64,000 nucleotides of DNA. Source: Mytilus galloprovincialis (Eukaryota; Mollusca; Bivalvia; Mytilida; Mytilidae). Under the pieces are notes generated by a model. The model was not told the origin of the DNA and did not search any database. It was given only the letters and a program-made list of their open reading frames with translations. The translations under genes and the position numbers were made by a program. Where the stretch lies: NCBI RefSeq assembly GCF_965363235.1, contig NC_134851.1, positions 54,378,833-54,442,832 of the forward strand, given 5' to 3'. Shown piece by piece: positions 3,201 to 59,883 of the stretch. The first letter of the stretch is position 1. Each line of letters starts with the position of its first letter.

Positions 3201-6200
3201 GAAATAGTATTGCTCAGCTGTCATAAACATGGTATGACATGGTCTAATAATTTCCCGTGAAAAAGGGGTGTTGTGTCCAAGGACTGTGGCAAAGACGAAA
3301 TTAAATCGTCATTTTACAAACGAGAAGAAAAAAACCAATTTGCGTAGCTCTTAATCAATTTCAGGAAACTTGATGAATAATGATCTACAAGCACGACAGC
3401 TGAAAAATTGACAAAGAGTCGTTCGAAAAATAAATTTCAACACACACGTCAAAAGCGTAATAGACTCCTCCACTGGAAAAACGAGGATATCGGGTTCATA
3501 AGTTGTTATGCATTCCTGTTTTATATATTTAAATGGATGATTTTTTTATCATAAGCTATGAAACATGAATTTGATGAAAATTCCAAATGATTTGTTTTTA
3601 TTAACATGATTAAATACTTTAACTTGACGTTTACCACGTTTGGACAAGTTGATTTTCCATTTTTTCTATAAGATGATGCATTTTACGGAATGATGACAAA
3701 TACAGGAAAGAACTTAATGTGTAATGGGTTTTAAACACATGTTTCGTTCTGCAATATTATATACGCAAATGACATTTCAAGGTTAGAAATCATTGATTGG
3801 TCTATTTTTAGATACGTAAATTTTTTTTGGAAGTTTTATTTTTTCAGAAGAGTGTTTCAGTTTTGTTAGTGTTTTTATAAAAAAAAGAATATTTTATTTA
3901 TTTTTCAGGGATAATGTTTTTGTTATGGTCGGCGGGAATAAAAAAGCATGAAAATTCAATTTTATTTTTATTCTGCAAATTGGCAAAATCGGGTCGGCAG
4001 AGCTGTAAACCAACAAATTAAAAAATCCTGGCCTTACCTACATCTGCTATTAACAAAGACTTTCCATTAGCTGGTAAATGTTGAGTATAGTGTGGCTTCA
4101 ATATAATTCTATTTTCTTCTTCTGCATCTGTTTCTGTCTACATAAAAAACAAAATTACAATTTCTATTAAATAAAGTCATATATTGTGAAGATAATATTA
4201 TACAATCGAGACAACAACTCACTGACAGAAACATAGAGATCAAAATATAGTCTTCAACAGAATATTGTCTGTATGTTTCATTTTCAAATTGCTTTGAGTA
4301 TAGTAGGTAGAAAAAAATCTAACACAGGCTATAGAAAATCTGCTATCATTACCAAATTAATCAAGCAAAAATTACAAAAAAACAAGAAAGTCTCCATAGT
4401 ACATGGATGCCCCACTCGCACTATCATTTTCGATGTTCAGTGGACTGTGAAATTGGGGTCAAAACATTAATTTGGCATTTTAATTAGAAAGATCATACCA
4501 TAGGGAACATGTGTACTAAGTTTCAAGTTGATTGGACTTCAACTTCATCAAAAACTACCTTGACCAAAAACTTTAACCTGAACTTCACATTATCATTTTT
4601 TATGTTCAGTGGACCGTGAAAATATGGTCAAAACTTTAATTTGGCATTAAAATTTGAAAGATCATATCATGGGGAATATGTTTACTAAGTTTAAAGATGA
4701 TTGGACTTCAACTTCATCAAAAACTACCTTGACCAAAACTTTAACCTGAAGCGGGATGAACGGATGCATAGACGAACAGACAGACAGACAGACAGACAGA
4801 CAGACAGACAGACAGACAGACAGACAGACAGACAGACAGACAGACAGACAGACAGACAAGACAGACAGACAGACAGACAGACAGACAGACAGACAGACGG
4901 ATGTACAGACCAGAAAACATAATGCCCCTCTACTATCGTAGGTGGGGCATAAAAATTAATATAAATCCAAACTGTTTAAAAGCTAGCTATTGTCCTGATC
5001 TGAAAATCATTCTGATGAGTTTACTGGCTGTTTCTAAATTCCCCAAGTCTTCTGTCTACCTTCTCTCACAGGATAAGATTTTATATTTTTCAATTGTAGC
5101 TTGTTTAAGAAGACTGAAATCTTGGGTGTTTGTGTAAGAAAATGAGATATATTTTAAGGCTAGTACACATTATAAATGTTCATTTTTGTTATAACAACAT
5201 TTGCTTCAAAAATTTCAACATCTCTACTTTTCAAAGGAAAATTTACCATCTGATCTCTACATTTGGCATTCCATAACCTCTCATTTATCTTTTTGATATG
5301 CCTACTCTACATTGTGAGTAGAATGCAAAATTTGTCAAAACCACAACACCAAGTATCGATAAAATATAAATTTTTCATAAAACATTCAAATAAATACATC
5401 CACAGTAAATGGAATGGAAGAAGCCATTACAATTTTCCAGCAATTGTCCTTTAATACAATACTAACCTTACTGTCATCTTTCTTGACTTCAGCAACCACT
5501 TCAAATAAGTAGCACCATCCCTCTGCTGTCAGCGCTAGTAATGTATTCTGGAAAGAAAGGAAAAATGCAGGTCCTTACATTTTACAGCTAGCGATAAATT
5601 AGGGTTAGTTTATAAAAGATAAACTTACGAAAGGAGGTCAAATTTTCATACACATACACAGATGCTCCAGTCAAAATCTAACTGGGACGGTGATTTATTT
5701 TAATGGATTATGGTGATATTCATGTTATTAGTGATCAAGTCGAGTGACTTAAGAAAGTGATATATCACAGTGAATAATGGTGACAGTACACATGTAGGTG
5801 ATTCACACTAGTTTTAAGTTTGCTGTTCAATCAAAAATTTTGGCAGTTAAATCTTTGTGGTGTTTAATGTTCATGTTTCACTTCCCTGTACAATGCATTT
5901 AAATGAACAGAAACAATGTGTGTACGGTAAATATGTATGTAAAATGCATCATTTTGTTTATTTTCTTTGGTTACATCTTCTGACATCAGACTCGGACTTC
6001 TCTTGAACTGAATTTTAATGTGCGTATTGTTATGCTTTTACTTTTCTACACTGGTTAGAGGTATAGGGGGAGGGTTGAGATCTCACAAACATGTTTAACC
6101 CCGCCACATTTTTTACGCCTGTCCCAAGTCAGGAGCCTCTGGCCTTTGTTAGTCTTGTATTATTTAAATTTTAGTTTCTTGTGTACAATTTGGAAATTAG

Positions 6201-57412: not shown

Positions 57413-59883
57413 TTTTTATACGACCGCAAAATTTGAAAAATTTTTCGTCGTATATTGCTATCACGTTGGCGTCGTCGTCTGCGTCGTCGTCGTCGTCCGA
57501 ATACTTTTAGTTTTCGCACTCTAACTTTAGTAAAAGTGAATGGAAATCTATGAAATTTTAACACAAGGTTTATGACCACAAAAGGAAGGTTGGTATTGAT
57601 TTTGGGAGTTTTGGTCCCAACATTTTAGGAATTAGGGGCCAAAAAGGGCCCAAATAAGCATGTTTTTGGTTTTCGCACTATAACTTTAGTTTAAGTTAAT
57701 AGAAATCTATGAAATTTTGACACAAGGTTTATGACCACAAAAGAACGGTTGGGATTGATTTTGGGAGTTTTGGTTTCAACAGTTTAGGAATTAGGGGCCA
57801 AAAAAGGGCCCAAATAAGCATTATTCTTGGTTTTTGCACAATAACTTTAGTTTAAGTAAATAGAAATCAATCAAATTTAAACACAATGTTAATGACTACA
57901 AAAGGAAGGTTGGTATTGATTTTGGGAGTTTAGGTCCCAACAGTTTAGGAATTAGGGGCCAAAAAGGGACCCAAATAAGCATTTTTCTTGGTTTTCGCAC
58001 CATAACGTTAGTATAAGTAAATAGAAATCTATGAAATTTAAACACAAGGTTTATGACCATAAAAGGAAGGTTGGTATTGATTTTGGGAGTTTTGGTCCCA
58101 ACAGAATAAGGGGCTCAAAGGGTCCAAAATTAAACTTTGTTTGATTTCATCAAAATTGAATAATTGGGGTTCTTTGATATGCCGAATCTAACTGTCATGA
58201 CTGTGTATGTAGATTCTTAACTTTTGGTCCCGTTTTCAAATTGGTCTACATTAAGGTCCAAAGGGTCCAAAATTAAACTTAGTTTGATTTTGACAAAAAA
58301 TGAATCAGTTAGGTTCTTTGATATGCTGAATCTAAAAATGTACTTAGATTCTTGATTATTGGCCCAGTTTTCAAGTTGGTCCAAATCGGGGTCCAAAATT
58401 AAACTTTGTTTGATTTCATCAAAAATTGAATAAATGGGGTTCTTTGATATGCTGAATCCAAAAATGTACTTAGATTTTTTATTATGGGCCCAGTTTTCAA
58501 GTTGGTCCAAATCAGGATCTAAAATTATTATATTAAGTATTGTGCAATAGCAAGTCTTTTCAATTGCACAGTATTGCGCAATGGCAAGAAATATCTAATT
58601 GCACAATATTGTGAAATAGCAATTTTTTTTTAATTAGAGTTATCTTTCTTTGTCCAGAATAGTAAGCAAGAAATATCTAATTGCAAAATATTGTGCAATA
58701 GCAAGATTTTTTTTTAATTAAGAAATAATTCATGGGGGCTTGAATATATCGTGATTTTACCACGGGTTGGCCCTTTATGACAAATATTTTACCCCTGAGC
58801 GATAGCGAGGGGTAAAATATCGGCATAAAGGGACAACCCGTGGTAAAATCTAGATATATTCAAGCCCCCATGAATTATTTCGATTCTGATAGGACACATA
58901 CGGCAATTCTTTTGGATCGAAGCGCTCTAGGTGTAGGCAAATATTTGCCGTTCCCATAAATAAACGCACTAATAAACTAGCGTAAAAGAACGGAGCAAAC
59001 TGCATTAGTGACATGCTTAAACTATTTAAAATAATGTATTTAGACAGTTTTAGATGAATTTGAATGATAATTTATTTATATGTCTTATATGATGTACAAT
59101 AAAGGGCTTTTGCCACATTTTAGCATCATTTGTGTATGTTTCCTTGTGATGATTTTCGGATTCACAAGCGTGTATTTTCCCGTAAAATGCTTACATTCTA
59201 ACGTCATTGTTCTATGACGTCGGGTATCTCATTCATAAAAAGCATATGACGTGGGAGTACAATCGGAACAGCACTGGCAATATATTCATATTTTACCACG
59301 GGTGTGTACTCAAAGCGTTTGAAGGACGTCATGTTAGAATTGGAGTTATCTTTCTTTGTCCAGAATCAACTTAAATCTTTGTTATATACAATATACAATG
59401 TATATTCACTTTTTACTACCAACTGATAAATTAAAATAATCTTTACCATTCAGTGATAACAAGCAGTTTTTTTACATCTTAATATTTTATGATGTATTTA
59501 AATGAGTAGTTATTGTTGCAAACTCCATTAGAAATTTTAATTGAGATTAGTTTTGGAATAAGGGAAAGGGGGATGTGATTAAAAAAATTGGGTTCAATTT
59601 TTCTCATTTGAAATTTCATAAATAAAAAAGAAAATTTCTTCAAACATTTTTTTGAGAGGATTAATATTCAACAGCATAGTTAATTGCTCTAAGAGAAAAC
59701 AAAAATTTTAAGTTCATTAGAACACATTCATTCTGTGTCAGAAACCTATGCTGTGTCAACTATTTAATCACAATCCAAATTTAGAGCTGAATCCAGCTTG
59801 AATGTTGTGTCCATACTTGCCCCAACCGTTCAGGGTTCAACCTCTGCGGTCGTATAAAGCTACGCCCTGCGGAGCATCTGGTT
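57413..59883 (+). mobile_element. Family C copy 6, interrupted by a hairpin-bearing insert
   Basis: Starts TATTTTTATACGACCGCAAA, with CGTCGTCGTCGTCG tract, four module-1 units (about 57565, 57727, 57887, 58048), alternating module-2 units (58100-58510), short module 3 (58540-58700), then, after the insert at 58718-59335, the right portion ending GCGGTCGTATAAAGC and CCTGCGGAGCATCTGGTT. Collinear with copy 1. Confidence 0.87.
58718..59335. mobile_element. Insert with a 158-bp hairpin inside family C copy 6
   Basis: Copies 1 and 6 align except for this ~0.6 kb. Its left end (58723-58880) is an inverted repeat with ~75-bp arms: ATTCATGGGGGCTTGAATAT, TTTTACCACGGGTTG, CCCTTTATG, then the complement; the loop centre is CCCCTGAGCGATAGCGAGGGG-like. 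TTTTACCACGGGT recurs at 59293 near the right end. Non-coding; TSD not resolved (AATT at both edges is possible). Confidence 0.75.

Follow-up and report, generated by a model that had tools for sequence, protein, structure and literature searches.

Copies of five repeat families in the window

The 64,000-nucleotide stretch of the Mytilus galloprovincialis genome analyzed here, hereafter called the window, corresponds to positions 54,378,833 to 54,442,832 of the forward strand of contig NC_134851.1 and is part of a 1.385-Gb genome in 331 contigs. About 24% of it is made up of five repeat families, designated C, G, I, J and H, which very probably are HINEs, that is, rolling-circle transposons of the Helentron/Helitron2 branch that are non-autonomous. 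The ends and the non-coding repeated core are particular to each family. The class definitions used here come from PMC4067079, PMC7492417 and PMC5148889. An earlier note made from the letters alone had recognized five families combining a palindromic end with a repeated core, a description that was borne out by the units found with Tandem Repeats Finder (TRF), by folding and by further copies, and the relatives it named, pearl elements and Helentron derivatives, are the right ones. By reading, with arrays checked by TRF and repeat searches, the window contains five complete copies and one truncated copy of C, one copy each of G and I, one probable split copy of J and three incomplete copies of H.

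The I copy (4381..4950, minus strand) is complete and runs from a 5' ATGCCCC hairpin through a GTCT tract and two 169-bp units to the 3' subterminal inverted repeat (subTIR) GTGGGGCAT, a palindrome and a tail ending in CTTGTT. Its edge had been placed at 4407, 26 nt inside the true edge at 4381, while the other limit given for the families, 59883, is the exact edge of a C copy. Likewise complete, the G copy (22966..24078, plus strand) has a 5' ATACCC hairpin, a GTCC tract and units spaced by 166-171 bp, followed by the 3' subTIR GTGGGGTAT, the palindrome GTGAGCGTGCTCAC and the end CTTTAATT. Complete C copies lie at 24511..26629 (plus strand) and 30189..31878 (minus strand), and between them stands a truncated C-like copy (27869..28090, plus strand) consisting of the 5' module and part of one unit, whose right edge, placed by reading, is approximate. 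An H fragment (33498..34257, minus strand) has its 3' end at 33498 with the palindrome GAGGCTC..GAGCCTC, and no 5' module was seen in it. A second H copy (35724..38152, minus strand), whose 5' module with a GTC tract ends at 38152, is split by a complete C copy (35844..37750, minus strand) that has a paralogous empty site, GCAGTTTTT^GGTTATTATC, in locus L069; no 3' end was found for this H copy, its similarity stopping near 35724.

The J copy is interrupted by both H and C. Its 5' part (39402..39772, plus strand), composed of T5, an ATACGCC hairpin, a CTGT/GTC tract and units, is followed by an H copy (39773..40724, minus strand) that has its 3' end at 39773 and is cut by C, by a complete C copy (40725..43072, minus strand) between the H and J pieces, and by the probable 3' part of J (43073..43383, plus strand), which ends in the palindrome TGCGCTCATGGCGCA and the tail CTGTT. 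Just the last ~105 nt of this 3' part align to the J end in L078, and its 3' subTIR is decayed (GTGTAT). The remaining C copy (57418..59883, plus strand) is complete at both ends and carries a further palindromic insert from about 58720, where a 73-nt inverted repeat (58722-58881, 86%) probably marks the beginning of a further insertion some 600 bp long.

Common order, edges and insertion sites

Read in one orientation, all five families follow the same order. A T-rich left flank precedes the subTIR, whose inverted copy a few bases further in completes the 5' hairpin; next come a short spacer, a tract of GTC, GTCC or GTCT and the repeated core, and the element closes with the 3' subTIR, a palindrome of another sequence and a tail, which has GTT at its end in C, I, J, the 33498 copy of H and the autonomous E lineage, and AATT in G. 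The true 3' edge lies 23-29 nt outside the 3' subTIR with the second palindrome between them, and each family has both hairpins. This second palindrome was absent from the earlier description, in which the hairpins named for C, G, I and J are indeed the 5' hairpins but that of H (GAGGCTC) is the 3' hairpin. By reading, subTIRs are present at both ends in all five families, with lengths of 11 bp in C, 10 bp in G and 9 bp in I, J and H.

Copies elsewhere in the genome were drawn from the 40 first-look candidates scored in each search (out of 6071 for I, 2267 for G, 2752 for J and 686 for the C 3' end, totals that are not copy counts), and the resulting lists of ends also hold chance rows and inner arms; the J list has 5 true 5' ends in 13 rows, the H list 3 in 6 and the C list 6 in 7, and the I list of 20 rows includes chance matches. 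The inner inverted arm of the 5' subTIR is present in 6/6 C rows, after removal of rows read as 3' subTIR or lacking the spacer motif, and in 28/28 G rows, one of which is a palindrome read backwards. It was also found in 11 of 20 I rows (the other 9 being chance or 3' matches), in 6 of 9 H rows (4 rows being chance), in the window copy of J and, by reading, in the J ends of L080-L083. A GTC-type tract stands 53-59 nt from the end in 6/6 C rows, 44-53 nt in 27 of 28 G rows, 40-76 nt in 8 of the 11 genuine I rows by a strict pattern, 60 nt in the J copy of the window (1/1) and 45-54 nt in five genuine H copies. The earlier view that H lacks a tract was rejected: its left module, the hairpin TTTTTAGCTCACC followed by a GTC tract, was predicted, partly from mollusc sequence, and then found in L006, L041 and L064, at 38152 of the window (minus strand), and in L069, where a full-length H copy (858-2018) has both modules and, by reading, two ~500-bp units.

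Representative 5' modules, typed from copies and in the case of J and H from loci outside the window, folded better than dinucleotide shuffles in all families (z = -2.9 for C, -3.5 for G, -5.7 for I, -5.9 for J and -5.2 for H). The sequence of the 3' palindrome between 3' subTIR and terminus is present in all five as well, with folding z values from -0.5 to -3.4. The end motif of C, GCGGTCGTAT, had 11 matches at one mismatch or fewer, compared to 0.35 expected, and the 3' end of this family reads GCGGTCGTAT, GCTGCGCCCTGCGGAGC and CTGGTT. G and I share ATRCCCCAC, as had been noticed earlier; with one mismatch allowed this 9-mer has 6 matches in the window versus 6.0 expected, and since it is not rare there, the claim rests on its position. 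In addition, ATAC is common to the 5' ends of C, G and J. Behind unrelated hairpins, C and H have a like spacer, ATCAC(G)TTGGCGTC, and G and I have ATGTTTT, which on this resemblance may point to an older kinship between left modules.

TRF yielded unit lengths of 161 bp for C, 171 bp for G and 169 bp for I, in agreement with the 150-175 bp proposed earlier for the families. J units in other copies lie ~150-160 bp apart; H does not fit this range with its two ~500-bp units, and TRF found no array in its full-length copy in L069. C carries three consecutive arrays with units of 161, about 135-145 and 35 bp. Repeats of about 160 bp also occur in the pearl/CvA and MgE/mg elements of bivalves. The cores had been described as non-coding, and of the six open reading frames (ORFs) of at least 100 aa in the window the sole one inside an element is a 176-aa read-through of the G array, whose single Pfam match is below its cut-off.

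The edges of the copies are sharp. In G, information is no higher than background 6 nt ahead of ATACCCC (28 five-prime rows) and falls within about 2 nt past CTTTAATT (28 three-prime rows); nine of 11 C 3' ends have the tail and stop at CTGGTT, followed by unrelated sequence, and 3/3 J 3' ends stop at CTGTT. Because the patterns used for finding ends already contain the tail (with up to 3 mismatches), the evidence for the 3' edges is the loss of similarity after it.

Ends were paired by script into 47 insertion rows (26 G, 14 I, 6 C, 1 J and 0 H), of which 41 are distinct and well paired when two rows that repeat copies of the window itself (L001, L039) and at least four mispaired rows (C in L052, C at 57728, the second I row in L007 and I in L043) are set aside. 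A paralogous empty site was found for 6 of the 47 rows (one C and five G, all well paired), and none of the six shows a target-site duplication, with four junctions matching or differing by one base; a seventh, for the family I insertion in L071, was compared by hand and likewise lacks a duplication. Among the 26 G rows, the last five flanking bases are TTATT in 16 and TTTTT in 5; TTTTT also stands in this place in 13 of the 14 I rows and in 3 of the 4 C rows that are well paired. Since TTTTT or TTATT is already there in the most similar empty sites (C in H, G in C, G in G), it represents the target, save for the usual ambiguity of T runs. Edge matches of 3-6 nt are confined to two T-rich cases in G (4 nt in L046; 3 nt in L052, where the empty site is free of duplication), runs of T in I (the copy in L006 and that of the window, entered twice) and one further 3-nt match in L006 after trimming of Ts, with no others in the 47 rows. 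Neither of the two outcomes that the earlier note had set against its own proposal was observed: the modules mark where copies begin and end, and no duplication of the target site was found.

Several observations weigh against the HINE assignment. The subTIRs measure 9-11 bp, whereas mites have 12-15 bp, DINE-1 has 13 bp and oyster normally has 11-12 bp, and the 3' palindromes of C, I and J barely beat shuffles (z = -0.5, -0.7 and -1.35). Two of the 11 C 3' ends have no tail, one in L044 and one in L071 that is cut inside the palindrome and belongs to a copy that has lost the target sequence on its 3' side. The empty sites in L040 and L050 are more diverged at the junction, and the empty-site tests are confined to C, G and I.

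A more far-reaching reading of the 5' side, which we consider improbable, is that the T-rich target, subTIR palindrome, spacer and GTC-type tract, the latter mostly 44-60 nt in, constitute one conserved functional unit. If so, the tract would contribute to the function of the rolling-circle origin or of an end signal, selection would have kept this order in five families with unrelated ends, and recognition would depend on structure and spacing as well as on sequence.

Autonomous Rep-helicase elements and their ends

The Pfam domain PF14214 (Helitron_like_N) has 138 matches in the genome, and two lineages of Rep-helicase elements were read to their 3' ends. The first, represented by L018, has a 3020-aa ORF, read in three pieces, with OTU, DUF6570, Rep, PIF1 helicase and C-terminal endonuclease domains; this set, with Rep, helicase and C-terminal endonuclease in one ORF, is the hallmark of Helentrons. 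Its 3' module, GGTGGAAAGACC with the palindrome CAATTGTTC, recurs in L070 and in two of three further copies, no matching 3' end being found in the third (L085), and is a sixth module outside the five families. In L070 and L084 this module is followed by a related element in tandem, so that the 3' edge is a putative one. A palindrome near 12425 of the L018 region was dropped as a candidate 3' end in favor of the module at 13176, which is the one that recurs in two of the three further copies. In L070 (about 3126-4060 and 8060-9100) a HINE-like family, the sixth, was observed; its hairpins, GGTCTTTCCAC, lie at 8060, its 3' ends read GGTGGAAAGACC, and it stands in tandem arrangement directly behind the endonuclease-bearing L018-type Helentron.

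The second lineage (L071/L072, L073/L074 and L075/L076) encodes Rep and helicase, and its 3' end, AAGGTGAGCGACACAGGGTCCTTGGACCCTCTAGTT, is an H-type module that is followed by unrelated flanks in 3/3 copies read. When its last 64 nt are aligned to the H-type ends in L005 and L043, 49-50 of 67-69 positions agree (72-74%), above 200 shuffles, and 14 nt, AAGGTGAGCGACAC, are identical in both; the ends of G and C compared with the same sequence are not above shuffles. This similarity is below the 80% given for a subfamily in PMC4067079, but the 14 identical nt would bring the two under the 11-bp family rule of the same source at the 3' end. Beyond the 3' end of the L073 copy lies H sequence that also borders a C insertion on its 3' side, the two positions agreeing to about one base. 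This autonomous copy, known only by its 3' flank, and a C HINE thus sit at one T-rich spot of H, in support of a shared target preference.

The partnership of the second lineage with H is less well served by other results. The match to the H copies in L069 and at 39773 of the window is weaker (41-47 of 68-71 positions), still above 200 shuffles, and Pfam returned no endonuclease match in the one copy searched. No H-type 5' subTIR was found upstream of the ORF in three copies, nor in an extra 2062 nt upstream of one copy, which consist partly of array and inserted HINEs and in which the 5' terminus was not located. A search of both autonomous elements for paired ends by inverted repeats gave mostly A/T-rich matches and no convincing pair. 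The similarity of the second lineage to H at the 3' end suggests a partial link, and no autonomous partner for C, G, I or J was found among the two lineages.

Alternatively, the second lineage might owe its H-type 3' end to an H HINE that entered its tail, which would imply no partnership. HINEs are frequent and nested, also in the 5' region of this lineage, a matching 5' subTIR was not found, and weak H similarity extends some 20 nt further in, all of which speaks for such an event. However, 3/3 copies end exactly there beside unrelated flanks, and the 2.8 kb before the end match the H copies compared over the final 36 nt only. We regard a tail insertion as possible but rather unlikely.

The region upstream of the second-lineage ORF contains, by reading, a non-coding array of ~165-bp units with a T7 tract (L087, L077, L074 and L076) that has been entered by HINEs of families I and C. 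An I-like element upstream of the autonomous ORFs was considered as a Helentron 5' end and rejected, as the empty site identifies the element in L071 as a HINE insertion. Furthermore, in L072 (6492-7995) an array of ~94-bp units starts right at the 3' end of the autonomous element.

Less probable again is that a single autonomous lineage moves all five families by recognizing a generic structure, composed of the T-rich site, a palindrome and the GTC tract, rather than sequence. The families resemble one another in order, tract position and target, and ATAC stands at the 5' end of C, G and J, which would be in line with such a mode, but the subTIR and palindrome sequences differ between families and are kept within each, and the two autonomous lineages have different 3' modules. 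Lineage-specific recognition is likelier than one enzyme for all families, because subTIR and both palindromes are peculiar to each family and the 3' modules of the two lineages differ. Of the earlier proposal of one mobilization mechanism, one mechanism class serving sequence-unrelated cores is retained, and the hairpin end as its single common signal is not.

Probable mode of movement and known relatives

Two readings outside the Helentron branch have practically no remaining probability. Spread of satellite arrays by recombination or extrachromosomal circles, with incidental hairpins, would suit the repeated cores and the unit number that varies among copies, but is contradicted for C, G and I by the identical unique ends, the same order, the sharp common edges and the empty sites of family copies. 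Cut-and-paste movement as miniature inverted-repeat transposable elements (MITEs), a label under which DINE-1-like elements had been annotated (PMC4067079), would account for short inverted repeats close to both ends, but is contradicted by 3' repeats that are subterminal, with another 23-29 nt and a different palindrome outside them, and by the lack of target-site duplications at precise terminal repeats, given 6/6 empty sites without duplication and few 3-6 nt edge matches, nearly all T-rich.

What the sequence directly shows is the order of the elements with their sharp edges, empty sites without duplication in C, G and I, the T-rich target, and the presence in the genome of Rep-helicase elements, one lineage of which has the H-type 3' module; rolling-circle movement by Rep and helicase is inferred from the known class to which the HINEs are assigned. 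By analogy with this class, the Rep/helicase protein of an autonomous element would recognize the 5' subTIR palindrome and the 3' subTIR with its palindrome and nick one strand, which would be peeled off by rolling-circle replication until a stop at the 3' palindrome. The freed strand would then integrate at a T-rich site, in most cases TTTTT or TTATT, and leave the target unduplicated.

The same plan has been described in Crassostrea gigas for 11 elements, some of them unrelated in sequence (PMC7492417). Like the mussel families, these Cg_HINEs have a 5' subTIR with a complementary inner repeat, a GTCY/GTCC microsatellite, a tandem core of 140-180 bp, a 3' subTIR with palindrome, and an oligo-T target without duplication, and they form several sequence-unrelated families; the comparison is one of plan, and the mussel elements differ in their shorter subTIRs (9-11 bp) and in the ~500-bp units of H. 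Moreover, the mussel genome has a protein-coding lineage with an H-type 3' end, whereas the oyster study related none of its 10 autonomous elements to its HINEs (PMC7492417). A similar organization with left and right modules, a 3' stem-loop, a T-rich target and no target-site modification is found in DINE-1 and other HINEs of flies and mites, compared here by plan, although the repeated core is more prominent in mussel (PMC4067079). Likewise, Helitron2 elements have asymmetric terminal inverted repeats, a hairpin at both termini and insertion after TTTT, but those of PMC5148889 are autonomous and the five mussel families are non-coding. The pearl/CvA and MgE/mg elements of bivalves have a comparable architecture according to PMC7492417 and are likened here by description only. 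In the titles and abstract openings of the open-access literature surveyed, no mussel HINE families are named. Since several HINE families, the 138 Rep-domain matches and one 3' end in common are brought together in one genome, the question of autonomous partners becomes directly testable by sequence.

Two coding features were also observed in the window. A ribosomal protein S26e gene was recognized at 21745-22101 (Pfam PF01283), with what look by reading like additional exons at about 22680-22790 and 27503-27630, and the G copy and a C copy appear to lie within an intron of this gene, between the latter two stretches. Finally, a short ORF at 48939-49262 with a weak RNase H match is probably a retrotransposon remnant.

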